DNA from: an uncultured Chloroflexota bacterium
GTDB taxonomy: Bacteria > Chloroflexota > Anaerolineae > Anaerolineales > Villigracilaceae
Direction: 5' to 3'
DNA: 42,507 bases
Assembly: GCA_903914955.1 (NCBI GenBank)
Contig: CAIWRB010000162.1
Location: 1 to 42,507 of the forward strand
Positions 28,505 to 38,902 of this stretch are shown here, piece by piece. Both the position numbers and the translations under genes were made by a program. The stretch's first letter is position 1, and each line of letters starts with the position of its first letter. The notes under the pieces are model-generated. The model was not told the origin of the DNA and ran no database searches. It was given only the letters and a program-made list of their open reading frames with translations.

Positions 28505-29710
28505 TCACTCCAAAAATTTTGATGTGTGTTCAATGATTTTTTCCGCCACTTCGAACTTGCTCATCAGTGGTAAAGTTTCCTGATTGCCATTGGCGAACAA
28601 TAGCGTTACCCGATTGGTCTCGACGGCGAAACCGGCATCCTTCGCAGAAATATCATTTGCAACAATAAGATCCAAATTTTTTGATCTTAATTTTTCGGAT
28701 GCATTTTCGAACAGGTTCTGACTCTCGGCCGCGAATCCCACTACGATTTGAAAGCGCTTCTTACCGACCTGTGAACTGGTGATTGTTTCAAGAATATCAG
28801 GTGCCGCTTCGAGTCTGATCTGCGGAATGCCGTCGCGTTTTTTTAATTTATCTTTCGCCGTCTGCGCTGGTCGGAAATCTGCCGCTGCCGCCGCCATGAT
28901 CAAAGCGTCAGCTGATTCATCCATCAGAGCATTGAGCATTTCCTGTACACTATTGACCTTTACCACGCGCGCGCCCACCGGCGGAGTTAATGCTGTCGGC
29001 GCAGTGATCAGGCAAACCTGCGCGCCTGAATCAAGCGCGGCTTGAGCGATCGCATATCCCTGTCTGCCTGAAGAATGATTTGTGATGACGCGTACCGGGT
29101 CGATCGATTCCTGCGTACCCCCCGCAGTGACGAGAATTTTTTTACCCGCAAGTTTTCCATTTTTACCGAGCGCGATCCGAAGGTGGCCGAAAATTTCGGC
29201 AGGTTCGATCATTCGTCCCTTGCCGGTTAATCCGGAAGCGAGATGTCCGTCTGCTGGACCAATGATGATCGCACCGCTCTTTTTTAGCTTCGCAATATTT
29301 TCCTGAGTGGTGGAATGATAGAACATACCACCATCCATGGCAGGCGCGATCACTAATGGACATTCCGCTGCCAACGCTGTGACCGTCAATAAATTATCAG
29401 CGAGACCATTTGCGAGTTTAGCGATTGTATTCGCTGTACATGGCGCGATGACCAGTAGATCGGCTATTTTTCCAAAGCTGACATGTAGTATATGAGCTTC
29501 ATTGCCCCACAGATCCTGGTCGGTAAATGCGCGGCGACCGGTCACAGATTGAAAGGTGAGTGGTGTGACAAATTTTTCCCCCGCGCCTGTTATGAGTACA
29601 TCTACTTGTGCGCCAGCCTGCGCGAGCTTGGATGCAAGGTCTGCGGCTTTATAACCCGCAATGGAACCTGTCACGCCGAGCAGGATGTGTTTTCCTGAAA
29701 AGATGGACAT
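28505..29710 (-). CDS. coaBC: Bifunctional phosphopantothenoylcysteine decarboxylase/synthase
   Basis: A 401-residue CoaBC (Dfp) that ligates cysteine to 4'-phosphopantothenate and decarboxylates the product in coenzyme A synthesis. The N-terminal flavoprotein half (about 1-180) has GVTGSIAGYKAADL, HILHVSFGKIADLLVIAPCTANTIAK and APAMDGGM. The C-terminal synthetase half (about 188-400) has ILVTAGGTQESIDPVRVITNHSSGRQGYAIA and the KLKKRDG lysine motif. Two variations are notable: Asp replaces the usual Asn of PAMN, and the flap region reads GLTGKGRM without the Cys of the E. coli enzyme. Both may be lineage features. A TATAAT nine bases before ATG 29710 and no ribosome site suggest a very short or absent leader. 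Confidence 0.93.
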   Translation of the reverse strand: MSIFSGKHILLGVTGSIAGYKAADLASKLAQAGAQVDVLITGAGEKFVTPLTFQSVTGRRAFTDQDLWGNEAHILHVSFGKIADLLVIAPCTANTIAKLANGLADNLLTVTALAAECPLVIAPAMDGGMFYHSTTQENIAKLKKSGAIIIGPADGHLASGLTGKGRMIEPAEIFGHLRIALGKNGKLAGKKILVTAGGTQESIDPVRVITNHSSGRQGYAIAQAALDSGAQVCLITAPTALTPPVGARVVKVNSVQEMLNALMDESADALIMAAAAADFRPAQTAKDKLKKRDGIPQIRLEAAPDILETITSSQVGKKRFQIVVGFAAESQNLFENASEKLRSKNLDLIVANDISAKDAGFAVETNRVTLLFANGNQETLPLMSKFEVAEKIIEHTSKFLE

Positions 29711-29800: not shown

Positions 29801-29829
29801 TTGACGCATCTGAAGTACGCGCATAGAAT
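29801..29829 (+). promoter_or_regulatory. Promoter of the aromatic operon
   Basis: TTGACG (29801-29806), a 17-base spacer and TAGAAT (29824-29829) match the sigma-70 type consensus. The predicted start near 29836 is only about four bases before the leader peptide ATG at 29840, which has no ribosome site. The leader may therefore be read from an almost leaderless transcript. Confidence 0.75.
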
Positions 29830-29839
29830 AGCGCCCAAT

Positions 29840-29914
29840 ATGTTATCTACTGTCCGCTTTTATTTTGCGTATTACTTTAACGGCCTCCGCTCGGTTGCCG
29901 CTGGTTGCGCTTAA
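29840..29914 (+). CDS. Phe/Tyr-rich attenuator leader peptide
   Basis: A 24-codon ORF starting MLSTVR and then FYFAYYF, that is three Phe and three Tyr in seven codons, ending GCA before TAA. It lies between a good promoter and an intrinsic terminator, 133 bases ahead of chorismate mutase. The composition matches the pathway end products Phe and Tyr, as in known phe, trp and his leader peptides. It has no ribosome site; translation would start at the very 5' end. The ORF also contains the antiterminator segment at 29882-29898. The assignment is from composition, position and pairing, not homology. Confidence 0.82.
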   Translation: MLSTVRFYFAYYFNGLRSVAAGCA

Positions 29915-29953
29915 GTAGACAGAAAAAAATCTGTATGCAAAAAGAGCGAGGCC
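29882..29953 (+). promoter_or_regulatory. Predicted antiterminator of the aromatic operon attenuator
   Basis: GGCCTC (29882-29887), bulged C, GCTC (29889-29892), then TTGC (29895-29898) can pair with GCAA (29937-29940), GAGC (29944-29947) and GAGGCC (29948-29953). That is 14 base pairs with one bulge and one small internal loop. The right-hand partner is the 5' arm of the terminator, so the two structures exclude each other. Between them lie the leader stop and a small ACAGA/TCTGT hairpin (29919-29934). Confidence 0.72.
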
Positions 29954-29973
29954 ACACGGTCTCGCTCTTTTTT
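29940..29973 (+). terminator. Attenuator terminator ahead of aroH
   Basis: AGAGCGAGGCC (29943-29953) pairs with GGTCTCGCTCT (29958-29968) around ACAC, with one G-T pair, followed by a run of T. It is an intrinsic terminator located inside the leader region, 74 bases before aroH, so read-through must be controlled. Confidence 0.85.
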
Positions 29974-30046: not shown

Positions 30047-30418
30047 ATGTCAATTCGTGGAATTCGTGGCGCGACAACGGTTTCAGCCGATGATCCTGAT
30101 TTAATTCTCGAAGCCACTCGGGAATTACTGGAGGCAATTCTGAGTGCAAATGCAAGCATGAAGCCCGAAGATGTGGGCAGTGCACTCTTCACGGTGACAG
30201 ATGATCTCGTATCGACATTTCCTGCAGAGGCGGCGAGAAAAATTGGATGGGGGCTCGTCCCGTTGATGTGTATGCGCGAGATTCCCGTTCCTGGTAGTTT
30301 GCGGAGAGTCATCCGCGTGCTTGTTCATTGGAATACGGAAATACCGCAGAATGAAATCACGCATGTGTATTTACGCGAAGCGGTTAAACTAAGACCCGAC
30401 TTGATAGCCGCACAATAG
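30047..30418 (+). CDS. aroH: Chorismate mutase, AroH type
   Basis: A 123-residue monofunctional chorismate mutase of the trimeric AroH class. It turns chorismate into prephenate, the branch point to Phe and Tyr. RGIRGATTV with Arg7, Cys75 and Glu78 in [10 protein letters not shown], Arg90 in RRVIRVL and Tyr108 in HVYL match the Bacillus AroH active-site residues at the same numbers. AGGAG six bases before ATG 30047 supports the start. It is the first structural gene after the attenuator. The 45 bases to aroF are non-coding. Confidence 0.94.
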
Positions 30419-30463
30419 AAATTAATTTTTTTTTCTTCATCCTTTGCATTTAGGAGTTTCACC

Positions 30464-31522
30464 ATGATGATCATAATGAAAGCCAACGCCACACCGCAGG
30501 AAGTTGAAGCAGTGATCGTGCAAATCAAATCAATGGGGCTGGCTGTCCACCTTTCGCAGGGAGTGGAGGCGACGATTATTGGCGCGATCGGCGAGACGCA
30601 TAATATTCCGATGGAACGCTTTGAAGGTTTGGATGGCGTGGATATTGTCCAGCGTATTACCCAACCTTACAAACTTGCCTCTCGGCAATTCCACCCTGAA
30701 GATTCCATGATTCCATTAAACGGATTTTCGGTCGGGGGGAATGAGATCGCGATCATTGCGGGCCCTTGCGCAGTGGAGAGTCGCTCGCAGATCATTGAAA
30801 CAGCCATCGCTGTAAAAGAAGCGGGCGCATCCGCTTTGCGCGGAGGAGTGTTCAAGCCGCGCACATCGCCATATGCATTCCAAGGGCTTGGCGAAGATGG
30901 TCTCGAACTTCTCGCTGAAGCACGTGAAAAAACTGGACTGCCGATCGTTGTTGAGATCATGTCACAAGTTCAATTGGATATGATGGCGAAATATGTGGAT
31001 GTGTTTCAGGTGGGTGCGCGCAATATGCAGAATTTTAATTTGCTGCGCGCCATCGGTGAAGCCCGCACAGCAGTTCTGCTCAAACGCGGACTCTCCGCCA
31101 CGATCGAAGAATTGCTCATGTCTGCAGAATATATTTTAGCGGGGGGAAATCAGCGTGTGATGTTATGCGAGCGCGGCATTCGCACGTTTGAAACATCGAC
31201 GCGTAACACAACTGATATTAATGCCATTCCCGTTTTAAAACATTTAACTCATTTGCCAGTTATCCTCGACCCATCCCATTCCACAGGTCACGCCGATTAT
31301 GTCGCCGCGATCGCGCGGGCAGGCATTGCCGCAGGCGCCGATGGGCTCATCATCGAAGTTCATCCTGACCCTGCCAAAGCAGTTTCAGATGGCAAGCAAT
31401 CTCTCAGACCAGAAAAATTTGCCGAGATGGTTAAACAGGTTGGTCAGATCGCGCAGATCATGGGGCGAAGCCTCATAACGGTTCAAGGTGAATATTCGCC
31501 CTTGAAGCAGGGTTGGGCGTGA
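30464..31522 (+). CDS. aroF: DAHP synthase, first copy
   Basis: A 352-residue 3-deoxy-D-arabino-heptulosonate 7-phosphate synthase that joins PEP and erythrose 4-phosphate, the entry to the shikimate pathway. Residues 1-70 form the ferredoxin-like N-terminal regulatory domain ([15 protein letters not shown]), as in the Thermotoga-type enzyme. The barrel has [55 protein letters not shown] and [13 protein letters not shown], with the Cys, His, Glu and Asp metal ligands. The N-terminal domain usually carries Tyr or Phe feedback inhibition. It is 76 bases from a second copy of about the same length. Confidence 0.94.
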
Positions 31523-31598
31523 GAACAGTGATCAGTAATTTGTAAATGGTACCCGTCAATTATCAACAACAAACACAAAGTCAAAAGGAAAATTAACT

Positions 31599-32633
31599 AT
31601 GATGATCATCATGCACCCAGGTGCACCCAGAGAACAAATTCAAGGCGTAATTGCTGAAATCGAAAACCAGAAATTGTCATCGCACATTATTGAAGGCGTG
31701 GAGCAAACCATCATCGGTGCAGTTGGTGACGGGCATTATGTCGCCAAGGAAATTTTCGAAGCCTTGCCTGGCGTGCTGTCAGTTCAGCGTATTTCACAGC
31801 CTTATAAACTTGCTTCACGACAATTTCACGAACAGGATTCCATCTTTCAGCTCGATGGTTTCTCTATTGGAAGTTTGGAAATTCCCATCATCGCAGGGCC
31901 ATGCTCGGTTGAGTCGCGCGCGCAGATTCTTGAAATCGCGCAGGCAGTTAAAGAAGCAGGCGCGAACGCCCTGCGCGGCGGGGTCTACAAACCGCGCACC
32001 TCGCCGTATGCGTTTCAAGGTCTCGGCGAAGAAGGTCTCGAATACATGGCTGAAGCTCGTGAAAAAACAGGCCTTCCGCTCGTGGTCGAGGTGATGGCCG
32101 TTTCGCAAATTCCGATGATGGAGAAATATGTAGATGTCTTTCAACTTGGCGCGCGCAACATGCAAAACTTTAATCTCTTGCGCGCTATTGGTGAAACGCG
32201 AACTCCCGTGCTTTTCAAGCGCGGCATGTCTGCCACCATCGAAGAAATGTTGATGGCAAGCGAATATATTATCAGCGGCGGCAACACGCGCGTCATGTTA
32301 TGTGAGCGCGGCATCCGTACCTTTGAAACCGCCACGCGCAACACCACCGACATCAACGCTATTCCAGTGCTCAAAAAACTCACGCATCTGCCAGTCATCA
32401 TTGATCCGAGTCATTCAACTGGTGATTCCGCTTTTGTATCCGCTGTTGCGAGAGCAGGTGTCGCAGCGGGCGCGGATGGCATCATTGTCGAAGTTCATCA
32501 CGATCCCGCGCACGCCATCTCGGATGGCAAGCAGTCGCTGACACCTGAGGCATTTGCAAAAATGGTGAAGCAGGTCAGGGCGGTGGCTGAAGCGGTGGAC
32601 CGTCGCCTCGTCGCTCAACATGAAAAAATTTGA
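31599..32633 (+). CDS. aroF: DAHP synthase, second copy
   Basis: A 344-residue paralogue of the preceding gene, with the same two-domain layout and motifs ([57 protein letters not shown]). Identity is high through the barrel, while the N-terminal regulatory domain differs more, which would suit different effector preferences. AAAGGAA precedes ATG 31599. Its last 14 bases overlap tyrA. The gap from copy one contains AGTGATCAGTAATTTG, a tract that also appears at the end of aroKB. Confidence 0.94.
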
Positions 32634-33474
32634 TCTCGTTGAGTCCAGGATCGCAATCATCGGATTGGGATTAATGGGCGGCTCGCTCGCATTGGGATTA
32701 CGCGGAAAATGCGCCGCGCTTTTTGGATGTGATCCGCATCTTCCTACGCTCGAGCTTGCTCTGTCCCAAAATATAGTGGACTACGCTGATAGCGACCCTG
32801 CCAAAGTGCTCCCCGAAGTTGACCTGGTTGTTCTGTCGGCGCCCGTCCCCGCGATCTTGACTGTGCTGGAGCAGCTGCCAACTTTTACATCAAAGCCATG
32901 TATCGTACTGGATATGGGTTCAACAAAAAAAATGATCGTTGACTCCATGTCACGCCTGCCCGATCGCTTTGATCCCATCGGCGGACATCCCATCTGCGGC
33001 AAGGAAAAACTCTCCCTTGCCAACGCCGAACGGACTCTATATTACGCCGCACCATTTTTGTTGACTCCGTTAGAGCGAACCTCTGCGCGTGCTTTATCCG
33101 CCGCCCATCAAATTATCGAGGCTGTCGGCGCGAAAGCCAAAATCCTGGACGCAGTTGAACATGACCGCATTCTTGCCTCCACGAGTCATTTGCCGTTTTT
33201 GATTTCATCAGCGCTTGCGCTTGCTACTCCAGCCGATGTCACCTCATTCATTGGCCCGGGTTTCACATCCACAAGCAGATTGGCTGGCACATCCTCTTCG
33301 ATGATGCTGGGCGTTCTGCAATCAAATCAAGAAAATGTATTGACTGCTTTGCGCGAATTGCAAAACCAATTAGCCGAGATCGAATCTTATTTATCTGCAA
33401 AGGATTTTCTGAAACTTGAATCTATTTTGAACGAAGCGCAGAAAAAATATCAGGTATTTATTCACCCTTCATAA
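32620..33474 (+). CDS. tyrA: Prephenate dehydrogenase
   Basis: A 284-residue TyrA-type enzyme that oxidatively decarboxylates prephenate to 4-hydroxyphenylpyruvate for tyrosine. The NAD(P)-binding [13 protein letters not shown] is at about 15-27. [19 protein letters not shown] and [17 protein letters not shown] give the catalytic and substrate-binding His residues. No fused chorismate mutase or ACT domain is present, so feedback control would have to come from other steps. It overlaps aroF copy two by 14 bases, so translation is coupled. An arogenate specificity cannot be excluded. No prephenate dehydratase gene is in the window. Confidence 0.92.
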
Positions 33475-33500
33475 TTTACACAAAGCGTTCATCCTTTCCA

Positions 33501-34793
33501 ATGCAAATCATACCCATTGCTCATCCACTCTCTGCCGTCGTCCGCGTGCCTGGCTCCAAGTCGCTGACCAATCGCGCTTTATTGATCGCATCCCTTGTAA
33601 ACGGATCCACGCATTTAACCAACGCTTTGTTCTCCGATGACTCGCGTCACTTTGCCAAAGCTTTGCAAGCATTAGGCTTTGATATCCAGTTCGATGAAAC
33701 CGATCAAACAATGACCGTCACAGGGTTGGGTGGAAAAATTCCTGCCAGCAAAGCCGAACTCTTTATTGGCAACGCGGGTACTGCCGCGAGGTTTCTCTCC
33801 GCTTTTCTTACACTTGGCAACGGCGAATATATTTTGGACGGCGAGCCGCGTATGCGTGAACGTCCCATCGGGGACTTGGTTGATTCATTAACTCAACTTG
33901 GCGCAAACATTCGTCCAGTGGAGAATGTAGAAGGCGGAAAGCGGAATGCGCAAATCTGTCCTCCTGTGAAAATCACCGCCAATGGTTTGCCAGGCGGGAA
34001 GGCCCAAATCGCTGGCGATATTTCATCCCAGTTTTTATCCGCATTGCTGATGGTGGCTCCGTATGCCCAAGGCGAGATCAAAATTACACTTTCGACAGAA
34101 TTAAACTCGAAGCCTTATGTAGACATGACCATCGACATCATGAAAGACTTCGGCGTGGAAATCGAACGTGATGGGTACAATAGTTTTACTATTCATCCAG
34201 CCGCATATTTGCCAATTAGCAATTACCAAATCGAATCTGATGCTTCTGCAGCTTCCTACTTTTTCGCCGCTCCGGCCATTTGCGGCGGGACTGTCAGAGT
34301 AGAAAATATCTCAAGAAAATCCGTGCAGGGCGATATCGCATTTCTCGATATCTTGAAACAAATGGGCTGTCAGGTTATGGAAGGGGAAAACTTCATCGAA
34401 GTCACCGACGCGGAATTATTGCTTGGCGTTGATGTTGATATGTGTGACATCTCTGACACGGCCCAAACCCTCGCGGCGATTGCGCCCTTTGCATCTTCGT
34501 CGACCAGAATTCGCGGCATCGCTTCTGCGCGAGTGAAAGAGACTGATCGGGTCCACGCTACCTGCACCGAGCTTGCCCGCCTCGGCGTCCAAGTGGAGGA
34601 GCATGAAGATGGCATGACGATTCATCCCTGTAAAATTTTCTGGCCTGCCAACATTCAAACCTACAATGACCACCGTATGGCAATGGCATTCTCTCTGATC
34701 GGTTTGCGCGTTGACGGAGTAGCGATTGAAAATTCTACATGTGTTTCCAAAACATTCCCAAACTATTTTGAAGTATTGGACTCTTTGCGATGA
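33501..34793 (+). CDS. aroA: 3-phosphoshikimate 1-carboxyvinyltransferase (EPSP synthase)
   Basis: A 430-residue EPSP synthase that transfers the enolpyruvyl group of PEP to shikimate 3-phosphate. PGSKSLTNRALLIA with Lys20, Ser21 and Arg25, NAGTAARFLSAFLTL, GEPRMRERPI, SSQFLSALLMVAP, and the C-terminal KETDR and NDHRMAMAF are all present. The loop after NAGTA reads ARF, while the plant and E. coli enzymes have MRP there. The stop overlaps the aroE start as ATGA. Confidence 0.94.
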   Translation: MQIIPIAHPLSAVVRVPGSKSLTNRALLIASLVNGSTHLTNALFSDDSRHFAKALQALGFDIQFDETDQTMTVTGLGGKIPASKAELFIGNAGTAARFLSAFLTLGNGEYILDGEPRMRERPIGDLVDSLTQLGANIRPVENVEGGKRNAQICPPVKITANGLPGGKAQIAGDISSQFLSALLMVAPYAQGEIKITLSTELNSKPYVDMTIDIMKDFGVEIERDGYNSFTIHPAAYLPISNYQIESDASAASYFFAAPAICGGTVRVENISRKSVQGDIAFLDILKQMGCQVMEGENFIEVTDAELLLGVDVDMCDISDTAQTLAAIAPFASSSTRIRGIASARVKETDRVHATCTELARLGVQVEEHEDGMTIHPCKIFWPANIQTYNDHRMAMAFSLIGLRVDGVAIENSTCVSKTFPNYFEVLDSLR

Positions 34794-35620
34794 TTCGTCT
34801 TGGCTTGATAGGCTATCCGCTCGGACATTCCCTCTCGCCCAAAATTCATACTGCGGCATTGAAAGCCTGTGGATTACATGGTGACTATTCGCTTTTTCCA
34901 ATTCACCCTGACGATAAACCTGGGTTGAAAAAATTACTTGACCAAGTCCGCGTTGATGAAATTGCTGGACTCAACGTCACCATTCCGCATAAGCAAAATG
35001 TGATCGGGTTCATGGATGAGCTAACTCCAACCGCTCAAGTCATTGGAGCGGTCAACACAGTTTATTCGCGAGATAATAAATTAATTGGAGATAACACTGA
35101 CGCCGCTGGTTTTCTAACTGATCTGAATCGATTCGTTGCCACTCAGCAATCGGCGGCCCGAAATCGTAAATCATCAATGGTACTTGGCGCAGGTGGTTCG
35201 GCGTGCGCGGTTGTATACGCACTACTGAATGATGGCTGGCAAGTCACAATTGCCGCCCGCCGCATTGAACAGGCTCAAGAATTAGCGGCGCAGTTTAAGA
35301 ACGCCAGTGCTGTAGAACTTAATTTTCAAACTTTCCAACCTTCAAACCTGCAACTGATCGTCAACACCACTCCAGTAGGTATGACCCCACTCACCGACGA
35401 ATCTCCATTGCCTGAAAATACTTCTCTTTCATCAGACACAATAATTTATGATTTGGTCTACAATCCGCGTGAGACAAAATTAGTGAAAGACGCGCACATG
35501 CATGGATTATCTGCTACAACTGGACTCGGGATGCTCATCGAACAAGCCGCCCTTGCCTTTGAGATCTGGACGGGACATAACCCGCCAAGAGATGTTTTAT
35601 ATACCTCGGTGGTTGAGTAG
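34790..35620 (+). CDS. aroE: Shikimate dehydrogenase
   Basis: A 276-residue AroE reducing 3-dehydroshikimate to shikimate with NADPH. GYPLGHSLSPKIHTAAL, NVTIPHK with catalytic Lys68, GAVNTVY, DNTDAAGF with Asp104, the dinucleotide motif VLGAGGSACAVVYAL, and the C-terminal GLGMLIEQAALAFEIWTG are seen. A linker (FQTFQPSNLQL) is encoded by a CTTTCCAACCTTCAAACC tract like those in the intergenic repeats of this window. The ATG overlaps the aroA stop. Confidence 0.94.
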   Translation: MIRLGLIGYPLGHSLSPKIHTAALKACGLHGDYSLFPIHPDDKPGLKKLLDQVRVDEIAGLNVTIPHKQNVIGFMDELTPTAQVIGAVNTVYSRDNKLIGDNTDAAGFLTDLNRFVATQQSAARNRKSSMVLGAGGSACAVVYALLNDGWQVTIAARRIEQAQELAAQFKNASAVELNFQTFQPSNLQLIVNTTPVGMTPLTDESPLPENTSLSSDTIIYDLVYNPRETKLVKDAHMHGLSATTGLGMLIEQAALAFEIWTGHNPPRDVLYTSVVE

Positions 35621-35670
35621 GGGAGGTATTCTTTCGCCCCGTATCGAAACCACCAATTCATGGAGATCTT

Positions 35671-36837
35671 ATGATTCGCTTCTTAACTGCTGGAGAATCC
35701 CACGGCCCATCGTTAACATCCATTCTCGATGGTATGCCCGCGGGACTTCTCGTCACAGCTGAAATTATTAACAAAGAACTCGCCCGTCGTCAGCAGGGAT
35801 ATGGTTCAGGCGGACGCATGAAAATTGAAAAAGACACTGTTCAAATCCTTGGCGGTGTAATGGGCGGCGAAACTACAGGTGCGCCGATCGCTTTGCTTGT
35901 GCAAAACGATGACCATGCCAAATGGAAAGGCAAAGCCATCGAGCCGATGACCGCCCCGCGCCCAGGTCACGCAGATCTAACAGGTGCAGTCAAATATGGA
36001 TACAATGACCTGCGTCCCGCGCTCGAACGTGCGTCAGCTCGTGAGACAACCATGCGCGTTGCGGCTGGCGCGGTCTGCAAACATTTCCTCGCGCAATTTG
36101 GAATCATCGTTGGCGGATATGTTTCATCCATTGGCGGGGTGCAAACTGATTTTGGCGAGATGCCTTACGAAGAACGCTTCGCCCGCGCCGAAGAATCAGA
36201 AGTGCGCTGTCCCATTGAATCGTCTGCGAAAAAAATGCGGGATGAAATCGAGAAGACCATTCACGGCAAAAATACATTGGGCGGCGTGCTCGAAATTGTT
36301 GCGCTCAATCTACCTGTGGGCCTGGGCAGTTTCGTTCAATGGGATCGCCGCCTCGAAGCAAAACTTGCATTGGCAGTTATGAGTGTTCAAGCAATAAAAG
36401 GAGTCGAAGTCGGCGATGCTTTCGAGAATACTCGTTTATCTGGAACCCAAGCTCACGACCCGATCAACTTGCAACTTTCAAACCTTCAACGTTCAACCAA
36501 CAGAGCAGGCGGAATCGAAGGTGGAATATCTAATGGACAGCCGATCATCATTCGCGCAGCAATGAAACCAATTGCCACCACGCTTCTTCCCCAGCCGACA
36601 GTTGATCTGGCGTCAGGGGCAGAATCTCCCACCAAATATGAACGCTCTGATTTTTGTCCCGTTCCACGCGCTGTGCCTATTCTTGAAGCCATGGTTGCCT
36701 TTGTTCTGGCAGATGCGCTCATCGAAAAACTCGGCGGCGACTCGATGAACGAGATGAAATCAAGATATAAGTCTCTCAGAAAAGCCACTCTCGAAGATTT
36801 GCAAATGGATAATAATCCGCATGTGTTTTGGGAATAA
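35671..36837 (+). CDS. aroC: Chorismate synthase
   Basis: A 388-residue FMN-dependent chorismate synthase. GESHGPSLTSILDGMPAGL, QGYGSGGRMKIE, PRPGHADLTGAVKYGYNDLRPALERASARET, TNRAGGIEGGISNG and RSDFCPVPRAVPILEAMVAF match the family. The segment INLQLSNLQRS, just before TNRAGG, differs from the usual acidic-aromatic turn and is encoded by a CAACTTTCAAACCTTCAACG tract, again like the intergenic repeats. The length at this position is unchanged. GGAGATCTT lies before ATG 35671, 50 bases after aroE. Confidence 0.94.
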   Translation: MIRFLTAGESHGPSLTSILDGMPAGLLVTAEIINKELARRQQGYGSGGRMKIEKDTVQILGGVMGGETTGAPIALLVQNDDHAKWKGKAIEPMTAPRPGHADLTGAVKYGYNDLRPALERASARETTMRVAAGAVCKHFLAQFGIIVGGYVSSIGGVQTDFGEMPYEERFARAEESEVRCPIESSAKKMRDEIEKTIHGKNTLGGVLEIVALNLPVGLGSFVQWDRRLEAKLALAVMSVQAIKGVEVGDAFENTRLSGTQAHDPINLQLSNLQRSTNRAGGIEGGISNGQPIIIRAAMKPIATTLLPQPTVDLASGAESPTKYERSDFCPVPRAVPILEAMVAFVLADALIEKLGGDSMNEMKSRYKSLRKATLEDLQMDNNPHVFWE

Positions 36838-36845
36838 AGTAAAAA

Positions 36846-36890
36846 GGTCATCGCGAGGAGTGCTTTTGCTCTTTGTGACGAAGTAATTTT
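36846..36890. repeat. Degenerate GTCATxGCGAGGAG...GACGAAGTAAT repeat
   Basis: The block GTCATCGCGAGGAGTGC, TTTTGCTCTTTG and TGACGAAGTAATTTT resembles the short repeat GTCATTGCGAGGAGC...GACGAAGCAATC found many times in various bacterial genomes, including Chloroflexota. It fills most of the gap between aroC and aroKB. A second partial match (AGAATCGCAATAACGAA) lies at about 36907-36924. Confidence 0.5.
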
Positions 36891-36933
36891 TTATTTATTA
36901 ATGTGGAGAATCGCAATAACGAATGGAATCACC

Positions 36934-38460
36934 ATGACTCACATCTATCTCTACGGCCCGCCTGGGACAGGTAAATCTACCCTCGGCAAAGAACTTGCTG
37001 ACGATCTCAAGTTACCCTTCATTGACCTTGACCGTGTCATCGAAACAAACGCGGGTATTTCCATTTCACAAATCATGGAACAACAAGGCGAGTCTGTATT
37101 TCGCGACCTTGAATCTTCTGCGTTGAAAAACTTGCTGAATAAAAAACAAAGCATAGTCGCCTTGGGCGGCGGCGCTTTGTTGCGAGAAGAAAACCGAGTC
37201 TTCGCGGAAAGCAACGGCCAGGTTATTTTGCTGATGGCAGATTTATCCACTTTGTTGGAGCGGCTGCGCAATGTTTTTGACACACGTCCTCTTTTGTCTG
37301 GTGACTTGCACGAAAAACTTTCGTCACTATTGGCGAACCGTATTGAGCATTACAACTCTTTCCCTTTCCTGATTCATGTGGATGGTAAAGCTGCCGAGCA
37401 AAACGCGCATCAAATTCAAGTTGCGTTGGGACGATATCACCTCTCTGCAATGGGGGAGTACGATGTTATGGTAGGCCGGGTTTCCGATCTGATTGAGCTG
37501 CCCATGCAAAACCCCATTCTCGTGACCGATGAAAACGTCGCGAAATTTCACGCTGAATCGGTGGTTGCTTCCTTGCGCTCAGCAGGGTTTGAGCCAAAGG
37601 TGGTCACTGTCCCTGCTGGTGAATCATATAAAAATTTGGAAACAATTTCTGCTTTATGGAAATCATTTCTGCAAAATGGACTCGACCGCAAAAGCATTGT
37701 CATCGCCTTGGGCGGCGGCGTGCTGGGTGATATGGCTGGGTTCGCCGCTTCGACGTATATGCGCGGAATTGCGTGGGTGGGTGTGCCAACTACTTTGCTC
37801 TCAATGGTGGACTCGTCGCTCGGCGGCAAGACAGGCTTTGATCTGCCTGAAGGAAAAAATCTCATCGGCGCATTTTATCCGCCGAAACTGGTTTTGGCGG
37901 ACCCGCAATTGCTGATCACATTGCCTGAGGCAGAATTAATCTCTGGCATGGCAGAAGTCGTCAAACACGGAATCATCTCTGACCCCAAATTGTTTTCGTT
38001 GTGTGGACGTGGATTGGATTGGGTGAAAAATAATCTCGAAGAAGTTGTCAAACGCGCAATGGCGGTCAAGATAAAAGTCATCGAGGAAGACCCGTATGAA
38101 AAAGGATTTCGCGCGGCCTTGAATTTAGGTCACACTGTTGGGCACGCGGTCGAACTTGTCAGCAAGTTTAAGTTGCGGCATGGCGAAGCGATTGCGATTG
38201 GCATGGTTGCTGAGGCGAAGTATTCTGTCCAAATTGGGCTGGCATCTGTCGGGTTGGTGGATGCGATAACTGAGTCGCTGTCAGCGCTGGGACTGCCCAT
38301 CCGAATCCCAGAAAATATGCCGCGCGAGGAAATCATCCGCGCGATGCGAGTGGATAAAAAGAAGAACGCGAAAGCCATTCGCTTTGCGCTGCCTGTGGAG
38401 ATCGGCAAAGTTGAATTGGTGGATGTGACGGATTTAGAATTAGTGATCAGTAATAAGTGA
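36934..38460 (+). CDS. aroKB: Fused shikimate kinase / 3-dehydroquinate synthase
   Basis: A 508-residue fusion. AroK (about 1-165) phosphorylates shikimate: P-loop GPPGTGKST near residue 8, FIDLDRVIE, FRDLES, GGGALLREENR. AroB (about 180-508) converts DAHP to 3-dehydroquinate: ALGGGVLGDMAGFAASTYMRG, PTTLLSMVDSSLGGKTG, SGMAEVVKHGI with a metal Glu, NLGHTVGHAVE and RHGEAIAIGM with metal His residues. An upstream in-frame ATG at 36901 is less likely than ATG 36934, which has GGAAT six bases before it. The C-terminal VISNK is encoded by TTAGTGATCAGTAATAAG, resembling a repeat tract after aroF copy one. The same fusion is known from Thermotoga. Confidence 0.94.
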   Translation: MTHIYLYGPPGTGKSTLGKELADDLKLPFIDLDRVIETNAGISISQIMEQQGESVFRDLESSALKNLLNKKQSIVALGGGALLREENRVFAESNGQVILLMADLSTLLERLRNVFDTRPLLSGDLHEKLSSLLANRIEHYNSFPFLIHVDGKAAEQNAHQIQVALGRYHLSAMGEYDVMVGRVSDLIELPMQNPILVTDENVAKFHAESVVASLRSAGFEPKVVTVPAGESYKNLETISALWKSFLQNGLDRKSIVIALGGGVLGDMAGFAASTYMRGIAWVGVPTTLLSMVDSSLGGKTGFDLPEGKNLIGAFYPPKLVLADPQLLITLPEAELISGMAEVVKHGIISDPKLFSLCGRGLDWVKNNLEEVVKRAMAVKIKVIEEDPYEKGFRAALNLGHTVGHAVELVSKFKLRHGEAIAIGMVAEAKYSVQIGLASVGLVDAITESLSALGLPIRIPENMPREEIIRAMRVDKKKNAKAIRFALPVEIGKVELVDVTDLELVISNK

Positions 38461-38467
38461 GGTGAGA

Positions 38468-38902
38468 ATGAAGGTTTTACTTTTGCACGGCCCAAACTTA
38501 AATTTGCTTGGCACACGTGAACCTGAAATTTATGGCTCGCTGACCTTAGATGACATTAATAAAAAGATGATCGCGTTGGGGAAAGAATTGAATGTGGAAG
38601 TGACTTGTGAGCAATCGAATCATGAAGGCGCATTGATCGATGTCCTGCAGGATGCGCGCGCTTGGGCGGATGGCGTGGTGTTTAATCCTGGCGGTTACAC
38701 TCACACCTCCATTGCGCTGCGTGATGCGATTTCTGCGATTCAAATTCCCGTGATCGAAGCGCATCTATCGAACGTGTATGCGCGTGAAGAGCTCCGCCAT
38801 GTTTCGATGATCTCTGCGGTTTGCAAAGGAAAAGTCGTCGGATTTGGCTGGCGGTCTTACGAGTTGGGTTTGCGTGGTCTCATTGATATAATCAAATTGT
38901 GA
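38468..38902 (+). CDS. aroQ: 3-dehydroquinate dehydratase, type II
   Basis: A 144-residue type II dehydroquinase. HGPNLNLLGTREPEIYG with catalytic Tyr22, CEQSNHEGALID, NPGGYTHTSIALRDAI, EAHLSNVYAREELRH and FGWRSYELGLRGL are complete family motifs. GTG 38462 is in frame, but AGGTGAG before ATG 38468 fixes the start. With it all seven shikimate-pathway activities are encoded in this run. The stop overlaps the next start as GTGA. Confidence 0.95.
   Translation: MKVLLLHGPNLNLLGTREPEIYGSLTLDDINKKMIALGKELNVEVTCEQSNHEGALIDVLQDARAWADGVVFNPGGYTHTSIALRDAISAIQIPVIEAHLSNVYAREELRHVSMISAVCKGKVVGFGWRSYELGLRGLIDIIKL
38864..38892 (+). promoter_or_regulatory. Internal promoter at the end of aroQ
   Basis: TTGGGT (38864-38869), a 17-base spacer and TATAAT (38887-38892), ending six bases before GTG 38899. 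It would give a leaderless esterase mRNA independent of the attenuator. Confidence 0.55.

Follow-up and report, generated by a model that had tools for sequence, protein, structure and literature searches.

Transcription attenuation by a stalled ribosome is a textbook mechanism, found in Proteobacteria and Actinobacteria. The enterobacterial pheA, pheST, trp and his leaders have a Shine-Dalgarno sequence, and each senses one amino acid. In Corynebacterium glutamicum, a leader called aroR, located before aroF, was reportedly described by Neshat et al. in 2014. The pheA, pheST and trp attenuators are named as such in a review (PMC11802643), and attenuation of this type is extended to some Firmicutes (PMC9413887). 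For aroR, the review describes how limitation of Phe causes ribosome stalling and raised transcription, Tyr availability being without effect (PMC11802643), and elsewhere translational control by Phe and Tyr is mentioned (PMC7356990). A proposed motif named uORFC-13-1 lies before aroF in 24 sequences, from Acholeplasma and unknown organisms only, with a ribosome binding site (RBS) present (PMC8632094, in part). As far as the available passages of two surveys go, one published in 2005 reported no conserved RNA structures before the Phe and Tyr operons of Actinobacteria (PMC1262725), and one on Rfam cis-regulatory RNAs, with Chloroflexi represented by five genomes, lists leaders for Trp, His, Leu and Thr as its amino acid leaders (PMC3766115).

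For Chloroflexota, no description of an attenuator of the present kind was found in the open-licence literature, and the available portions of PMC9413887, PMC4833913 and PMC3766115 describe none. The initial annotation of the locus treated here had likewise known of none. It had also placed such control mostly in Proteobacteria, which is too narrow, since attenuation of a DAHP synthase gene has been described in an actinobacterium (C. glutamicum aroR). Here, we report a leader ahead of an aroH operon that, with a probability of roughly 0.87 as judged from sequence, is a ribosome-mediated transcription attenuator sensing Phe and Tyr.

The Leader and the Operon Behind It

The window, that is, the whole stretch of DNA analysed, is a contig of 42,507 nucleotides from an uncultured Chloroflexota bacterium whose genome comprises 4.4 Mb in 470 contigs. 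On its plus strand, an ORF of 24 codons runs from an ATG at 29840 to a TAA at 29912–29914. Its translation, MLSTVRFYFAYYFNGLRSVAAGCA, bears out the run FYFAYYF picked out by the initial annotation; these putative control codons are codons 7–13 of the ORF (29858–29878). The intrinsic terminator that had been placed behind the ORF is likewise found, as a hairpin of 15 pairs with a loop of 4, followed by T, at 29939–29972.

The aro genes follow on the same strand, tightly packed from 30047 to 38902. Profile matches identify aroH, encoding a type I chorismate mutase and having a Shine-Dalgarno-like word upstream (30047–30418; TIGR01796, 1.4e-42), two copies of aroF for DAHP synthase (30464–31522 and 31599–32633), tyrA for prephenate/arogenate dehydrogenase (32620–33474; E 1.7e-52, short of the matched models' curated cut-offs), aroA for EPSP synthase (33501–34793), aroE for shikimate dehydrogenase (34790–35620), aroC for chorismate synthase (35671–36837), an aroK-aroB fusion for shikimate kinase and 3-dehydroquinate synthase (36901–38460) and aroQ for type II 3-dehydroquinate dehydratase (38462–38902). 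The gene order first annotated, aroH, two aroF, tyrA and the rest of the pathway, is thus confirmed, and all seven shikimate activities are present together with chorismate mutase and TyrA. All of these genes would be carried by a single transcript. The tandem aroF pair (30464–32633) occurs in some genomes and a single aroF in others. A coaBC-type (Dfp) flavoprotein gene (28505–29710, minus strand) is divergent from the aro promoter, with about 130 nt between it and the leader ATG.

Distribution of the Leader

A scan with AroH yielded 45 loci, the closest named one of which (L001, AroH 98% identical) is titled Chloroflexi bacterium isolate LacPavin_0818_WC45_MAG_48_10. A short ORF with an aromatic run, starting 155–223 nt before aroH, is present in 37 of the 43 loci that have at least 300 nt upstream. 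The six loci without it are all non-Anaerolineae, namely three Brevibacillus, one Ktedonospora, one Spirochaetes and one Planctomycetota; the Planctomycetota locus L045 has aroH-aroF-tyrA without the leader. One or two copies of aroF lie behind aroH in 37 of the 39 loci L001–L039, the other two having less than 500 nt downstream. Leptolinea tardivitalis YMTK-2 (L039) is a named strain carrying the leader element. Another locus, L006, is titled Herpetosiphon sp., yet its AroH (84%) and its leader are of the Anaerolineales-record type, and its label or binning is therefore doubtful. When leaders of related genomes were aligned, a check that the initial annotation had proposed, the F/Y-rich ORF and the terminator turned out to be kept while the sequence drifts.

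At the level of the class, 203 of 298 genomes gave an AroH match, and 60 upstream regions were examined, mostly from the top of the list, one of which (L060) was too short. A leader, defined as a short ORF with at least five F, Y or W in eight codons, is present at 14 of the 15 near Anaerolineae loci and at 32 of the 44 far ones, as against none of 59 reverse-strand regions and 1.3% (near) and 0.7% (far) of dinucleotide shuffles; the sole near failure, L057, has four of eight. At the level of the phylum, 127 of 251 genomes gave an AroH match. Some 103 of these belong to other Chloroflexota classes, and 40 loci from them were chosen for spread over families: 12 have a leader by the same rule and 28 do not, the reverse strand giving none.

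A covariance model (R1) was built from 49 leaders, some of which come from the same genomes that were searched. Among 150 genomes of the family, it gave 115 matches at E ≤1e-7 in 114, and AroH gave 119 matches in 118 of the same 150. The leader lies directly upstream, within 420 nt, of 113 of the 119 aroH genes; conversely, 113 of the 115 strong matches lie at most 420 nt before aroH. As for the six aroH genes lacking a match, four are at or near contig ends (G632, G623, G644 and G650), one is a partial gene (G602) and one has a diverged leader that the model missed (G534; MPSTPAWFYGYYFFYASHRARGRVITP). Two R1 leaders have no aroH. One, on contig C74 of G623, is at 101–239 on the minus strand and therefore runs towards the contig start. 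The other, on contig C59 of G548 (L200, leader at 135), precedes a lone DAHP synthase gene (aroF); its run is Phe-rich, RFYFFAFFF, whereas that of the aroH leader in the same genome (L206) is Tyr-rich, RYAYYFY. Such a pair is what would be expected if the codons are the sensor, though it is one case, and in this single genome the codon bias may follow the DAHP synthase isozyme.

Promoter and Probable Leaderless Start

How would a ribosome be loaded onto so short a leader? Transcription normally starts about 7 nt past the -10 box. A sigma-70-type promoter, TTGACG - 17 nt - TAGAAT, occupies 29801–29829, with 10 nt between the end of its -10 box and the leader ATG. This spacing is exactly 10 nt in 44 of the 49 near leaders, the window included, and 11 nt in 2, and in 47 of the 49 the best-matching promoter agrees with the consensus at 10 or 11 of 12 bases. 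About 3 nt would therefore remain before the ATG, and the leader of the near family is probably translated from a leaderless end. A Shine-Dalgarno-like word is found before none of the 49 near leaders, as opposed to 48 of the 49 aroH genes. Such a word occurs in 2 of 37 far and 2 of 12 other-class leaders, the promoter mapping being that of the near set. An upstream in-frame TTG start, giving 37 codons, was rejected because this TTG belongs to the -35 box and owes its frame to the constant promoter spacing. In L200, an ATG at 118 that opens a longer frame with the usual tail overlaps the -10 box, and the ATG at 135 was taken instead.

A leaderless small ORF followed by a terminator is also the layout of Sinorhizobium rnTrpL/peTrpL, which is reported to act in trans, according to the available part of PMC7298713, and by this likeness the released leaderless RNA of about 135 nt, or its peptide, might act in trans besides attenuating in cis. 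However, the peptide outside the run differs, by eye, between the near and far sets, and we regard an additional action in trans as rather unlikely.

Putative Control Codons

The aromatic character of the run is kept among the 49 near leaders, while its wording is not: 23 distinct run strings occur, in which F and Y interchange freely. In the 8-codon windows, 325 of 392 codons are TTY, TAY or TGG (TTT 137, TTC 8, TAT 78, TAC 74, TGG 28), and near runs contain 5–7 aromatic codons in 8, often including Trp. The latter, which goes beyond the Phe and Tyr of the initial annotation, is present in the runs of 28 of the 49 near leaders, 13 of the 37 far ones and 3 of the 12 from other classes. In L014, L036 and L056, the frame shifts after the run; the nucleotides GCCGTTGG..GGCGCTTAA are unchanged, and the peptide becomes LPLVALK or LPLAALK. 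L200 likewise keeps the nucleotides of this stretch (segment 2, see below) in another frame. Thus, what is conserved there would be RNA pairing, not the peptide.

These features bear on whether the leader might encode a nascent-chain arrest peptide like TnaC, which would sense a free aromatic amino acid or a drug via the exit tunnel rather than a shortage of tRNA. Many near relatives do have a peptide of 24–27 residues with a similar C-terminus (VAVGGA and the like). However, the four frame-shifted leaders have another C-terminus on unchanged RNA letters, F and Y come in scrambled order across the run strings, and the far leaders' peptides outside the run are, by eye, quite different, all of which makes arrest very unlikely. 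On the attenuation reading, the leader ORF would be translated, to which the keeping of aromatic codons in frame points indirectly.

Terminator, Protector and Antiterminator

The hairpin at 29939–29972 has the most pairs among eight terminator-like sites in the 2 kb scanned, where shuffles lead one to expect 1.9. The 145-nt leader RNA folds with -47.7 kcal/mol (z -4.83), and none of 200 shuffles is equally stable. A simple finder detects a terminator in 51 of 52 near leaders, L055 being missed. In the family alignment (A1), the terminator helix, formed by segments 3 and 4 (3:4), is paired in 96% of cells, 7 of its 12 pairs have changes on both sides, and its covariation is reached by none of 500 shuffles.

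Segments 1 and 2 would form a protector hairpin, with its 5′ arm (segment 1, ACGGC..CCG) at 29880–29889 and its 3′ arm (segment 2, GCCGCTGGTTGCGCTT) at 29897–29912, ending at the stop codon. In the family, this helix joins ACGGY, right after the run, to GCCGU near the ORF end, with an inner stem of CCGA/UCGG, or CCAG/CUGG in some. In A1, 90% of its cells are paired and 6 of 9 pairs are changed on both sides, a covariation that again none of 500 shuffles equals.

Segment 2 has a second potential partner, segment 3 (GAGCGAGGCCACACGG; 29944–29959), which consists of the terminator 5′ arm and loop. In this putative antiterminator (2:3), CCGUUGGU..CGCUU, ending at the stop codon, pairs with AGAGCG..ACCACACGG. 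The assignment in the window relies on the duplex and slid-register tests and on analogy with the partner swap in far leaders. In the family, 92% of cells are paired, compared with 37–47% when the register is slid. No covariation of helix 2:3 was found within the family alignment, because the helix hardly varies there. As a duplex of single sequences it is only moderately strong in the family: when set against 200 shuffles, 27 of the 52 leaders come out among the top 10 (mean z -1.8).

In the partner-swap test, the 3′ part of the ORF was paired with the terminator 5′ arm and loop either of its own leader or of another genome. The set started from 46 loci, of which 9 have no leader ORF, while a strict finder detects no terminator in 9 more; the 28 remaining leaders comprise 26 far ones and L059 and L061, both of which are also in A1. 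Native duplexes average -21.5 kcal/mol and swapped ones -16.4, and none of 5000 permutations is as good, a figure that overstates independence because some rows are close relatives. Outside the class, a terminator is detected by the finder in 10 of 12 leaders, and the 2:3 duplex beats at least 293 of 300 shuffles in 8 of these 10; of the exceptions, L144 does not stand out and L122 fails. A protector-like pairing in the far and other-class sets, between sequence preceding the run and sequence following it, is modestly better in native than in swapped combinations (69 and 47 of 5000 permutations, respectively), relatedness among the leaders remaining in these figures as in the other permutation and shuffle controls.

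Protector and terminator are each mutually exclusive with the antiterminator, and all three pairings persist while the sequence drifts. A conserved antiterminator that overlaps the ORF end and opposes the terminator had not been part of the initial annotation. The best single duplex in the window, GGCCTCCGCTC:GAGCGAGGCC, was also considered as the antiterminator; it is found in L001 and L010 only and is thus not general. A pairing of the ORF start with bases past the stop is present in the fold of the window and, by eye, has another register in relatives.

Could the terminator be part of a constitutive attenuator that tunes the basal level only, the ORF being a by-product of a T-rich promoter-proximal stretch? 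Terminators are common and the leader is short, as this would have it; but an aromatic-rich ORF arises in none of the 59 reverse-strand regions and in about 1% of shuffles, the antiterminator is specific to native partners, the protector covaries, and strong leader matches are placed before aroH in 113 of 115 cases, which renders a purely constitutive role highly improbable.

Ribosome Position and the Proposed Choice of Fold

The ORF, the codon run, the terminator and the complementarities, together with their conservation, can be read directly from the sequences, and they suggest the following outline of attenuation by Phe and Tyr. RNA polymerase would start a few nucleotides before the leader ATG, as the fixed -10 spacing implies, and a ribosome would load on the bare 5′ end of the leader RNA. 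When charged tRNA-Phe and tRNA-Tyr are plentiful, the ribosome would reach the UAA at the end of segment 2 and cover this segment, so that segment 3 pairs with segment 4 and transcription stops ahead of aroH. When Phe- or Tyr-tRNA is short, the ribosome would stall in the aromatic run and open the protector helix 1:2; the freed segment 2 would then pair with segment 3, and the polymerase would continue into the operon. Without translation, 1:2 and 3:4 would both form and the operon would be off. The direction of the response, with shortage of Phe or Tyr raising expression, would follow from this arrangement. The combined Phe and Tyr sensing put forward in the initial annotation is supported, as far as the sequences allow one to judge.

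The scheme was modelled on folded nascent transcripts ending at the terminator loop, in which the roughly 30 nt under the ribosome were kept from pairing. In 48 near leaders (L029 was missed by the finder), the mean number of antiterminator pairs in this model, in which kinetics are ignored, is 9.9 with the ribosome on the aromatic codons, 7.6 with it at the stop and 5.2 without a ribosome; the corresponding values in 26 far leaders are 9.8, 6.3 and 5.7. With the footprint being assumed, the stalled position exceeds the stop position in 31 of 48 near (p 0.002) and 19 of 26 far leaders (p 0.0005), but 12 of the near set and one of the far set (L067) differ by more than 2 pairs in the opposite direction. 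The window itself barely discriminates (11.3 pairs stalled, 10.0 at the stop), because GGCCTCCGCTC (29882–29892) is also able to pair with the terminator arm.

Codon-by-codon scores, obtained for 19 of 22 chosen leaders, tend to be highest at mid-to-late codons of the run, with a sharp drop at the very last one in L003, L011, L017, L038 and L058. In Trp-bearing near leaders, the Trp codon, the first of the run in most of them, scores below the mid-to-late codons; in this model, Trp may therefore count least.

Other Amino Acid Operons in the Same Genome

A His leader, MFAHKHHVHHHNPPERPGYSLRVPEIN, lies before hisG (L109, contig C296, 1172–1255), with a terminator-like stretch behind it. ORFs with at least four His in eight codons occur on the hisG strand at 12 of 20 family hisG loci, that of the same genome included, and the his operon therefore seems to be attenuated in the same way as aro. 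Before trpE (L108, contig C97), there is a T-box-like match at 2061–2359 on the minus strand (RF00230, 75 bits, E 1.6e-16, curated 93), whose likely specifier, by eye in the alignment, is UGG (Trp); a leader scan of the trpE strand gave no Trp leader peptide. Within one genome, trp thus seems to be governed by a T-box, and aro and his by leader peptides. No Phe leader was found at the separate aminotransferase-pheA operon (L107) in the first 1.6 kb, where the only candidate is a frame with F/Y at 3 of 8 codons inside the aminotransferase gene, and the stretch further upstream (L150) gave no Rfam match.

The T-box-like match before trpE might lead one to suspect that a tRNA-binding T-box, or a protein-binding switch such as TRAP, controls the aro terminator as well, but this is scarcely credible, as no Rfam family is above its cut-off in the window, with no amino acid operon leader at or above its curated score, the sub-threshold matches there are weak (a Thr leader at 17.8 bits among them) and include no T-box (RF00230), and the stop codon is 23–41 nt from the terminator in the near set.

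Origin and Significance

Attenuation by Phe and Tyr codons being the preferred reading, a broader picture may tentatively be drawn from the sequences, with odds somewhat against it: a leaderless attenuator at the shikimate entry might date from an ancestor that Anaerolineae share with other classes of Chloroflexota, working as a position-weighted gate for all three aromatic end products, in which the weight of each shortage depends on how Trp, Phe and Tyr codons are ordered and apportioned with respect to segment 1, and in which duplicated DAHP synthase genes receive leaders retuned to one amino acid (seen in one genome). If present at the shikimate entry across a large part of a deep and mostly uncultured phylum, attenuation would prove able to serve as a long-lived control of an entire pathway. 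The leader also tells annotators of metagenome-derived genomes where the aro operon would be switched, and the more than 100 natural leaders mixing two or three amino acids form a series for measuring the weight of each codon position. Leptolinea tardivitalis, as a named strain, makes the attenuator testable.

Comparison with Known Attenuators

The C. glutamicum aroR leader resembles the present one in being a short peptide with Phe-Tyr-Phe before a DAHP synthase gene, as described in the available parts of PMC11802643, PMC7356990 and PMC4046766. As far as these sources go, it differs in having three aromatic residues, in contrast to 5–7 in 8 codons, often with Trp, in near Chloroflexota runs, and in belonging to an actinobacterial operon containing aroF, whereas a chorismate mutase-DAHP synthase-TyrA-shikimate operon follows here. 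The uORFC-13-1 motif (PMC8632094) similarly combines a uORF having at least one Phe codon with a terminator before a DAHP synthase gene; unlike the present leader, it has an RBS and comes from Acholeplasma or unknown organisms. For the RBS-free start, likenesses are offered, in the excerpts available, by the leaderless trpL transcript of Sinorhizobium meliloti (PMC7298713) and the ilvBNC leader of C. glutamicum (PMC4046766), both encoding attenuator leader peptides, though for other amino acids and in other phyla.

With the enterobacterial pheA, pheST, trp and his attenuators, the leader shares control codons, protector, antiterminator and terminator. Unlike them, the Chloroflexota family leader is predicted to be leaderless and mixes Phe, Tyr and often Trp, and its segment 2 lies inside the ORF up to the stop codon. 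The mechanism would thus be of a known kind. What appears to be new, as far as sequence tells, lies in the phylum, in how much of the pathway is covered, in runs that combine Phe and Tyr and often Trp, in the predicted leaderless start of the family with its constant spacing, and in an antiterminator that draws on the terminator loop and ends at the leader stop codon.
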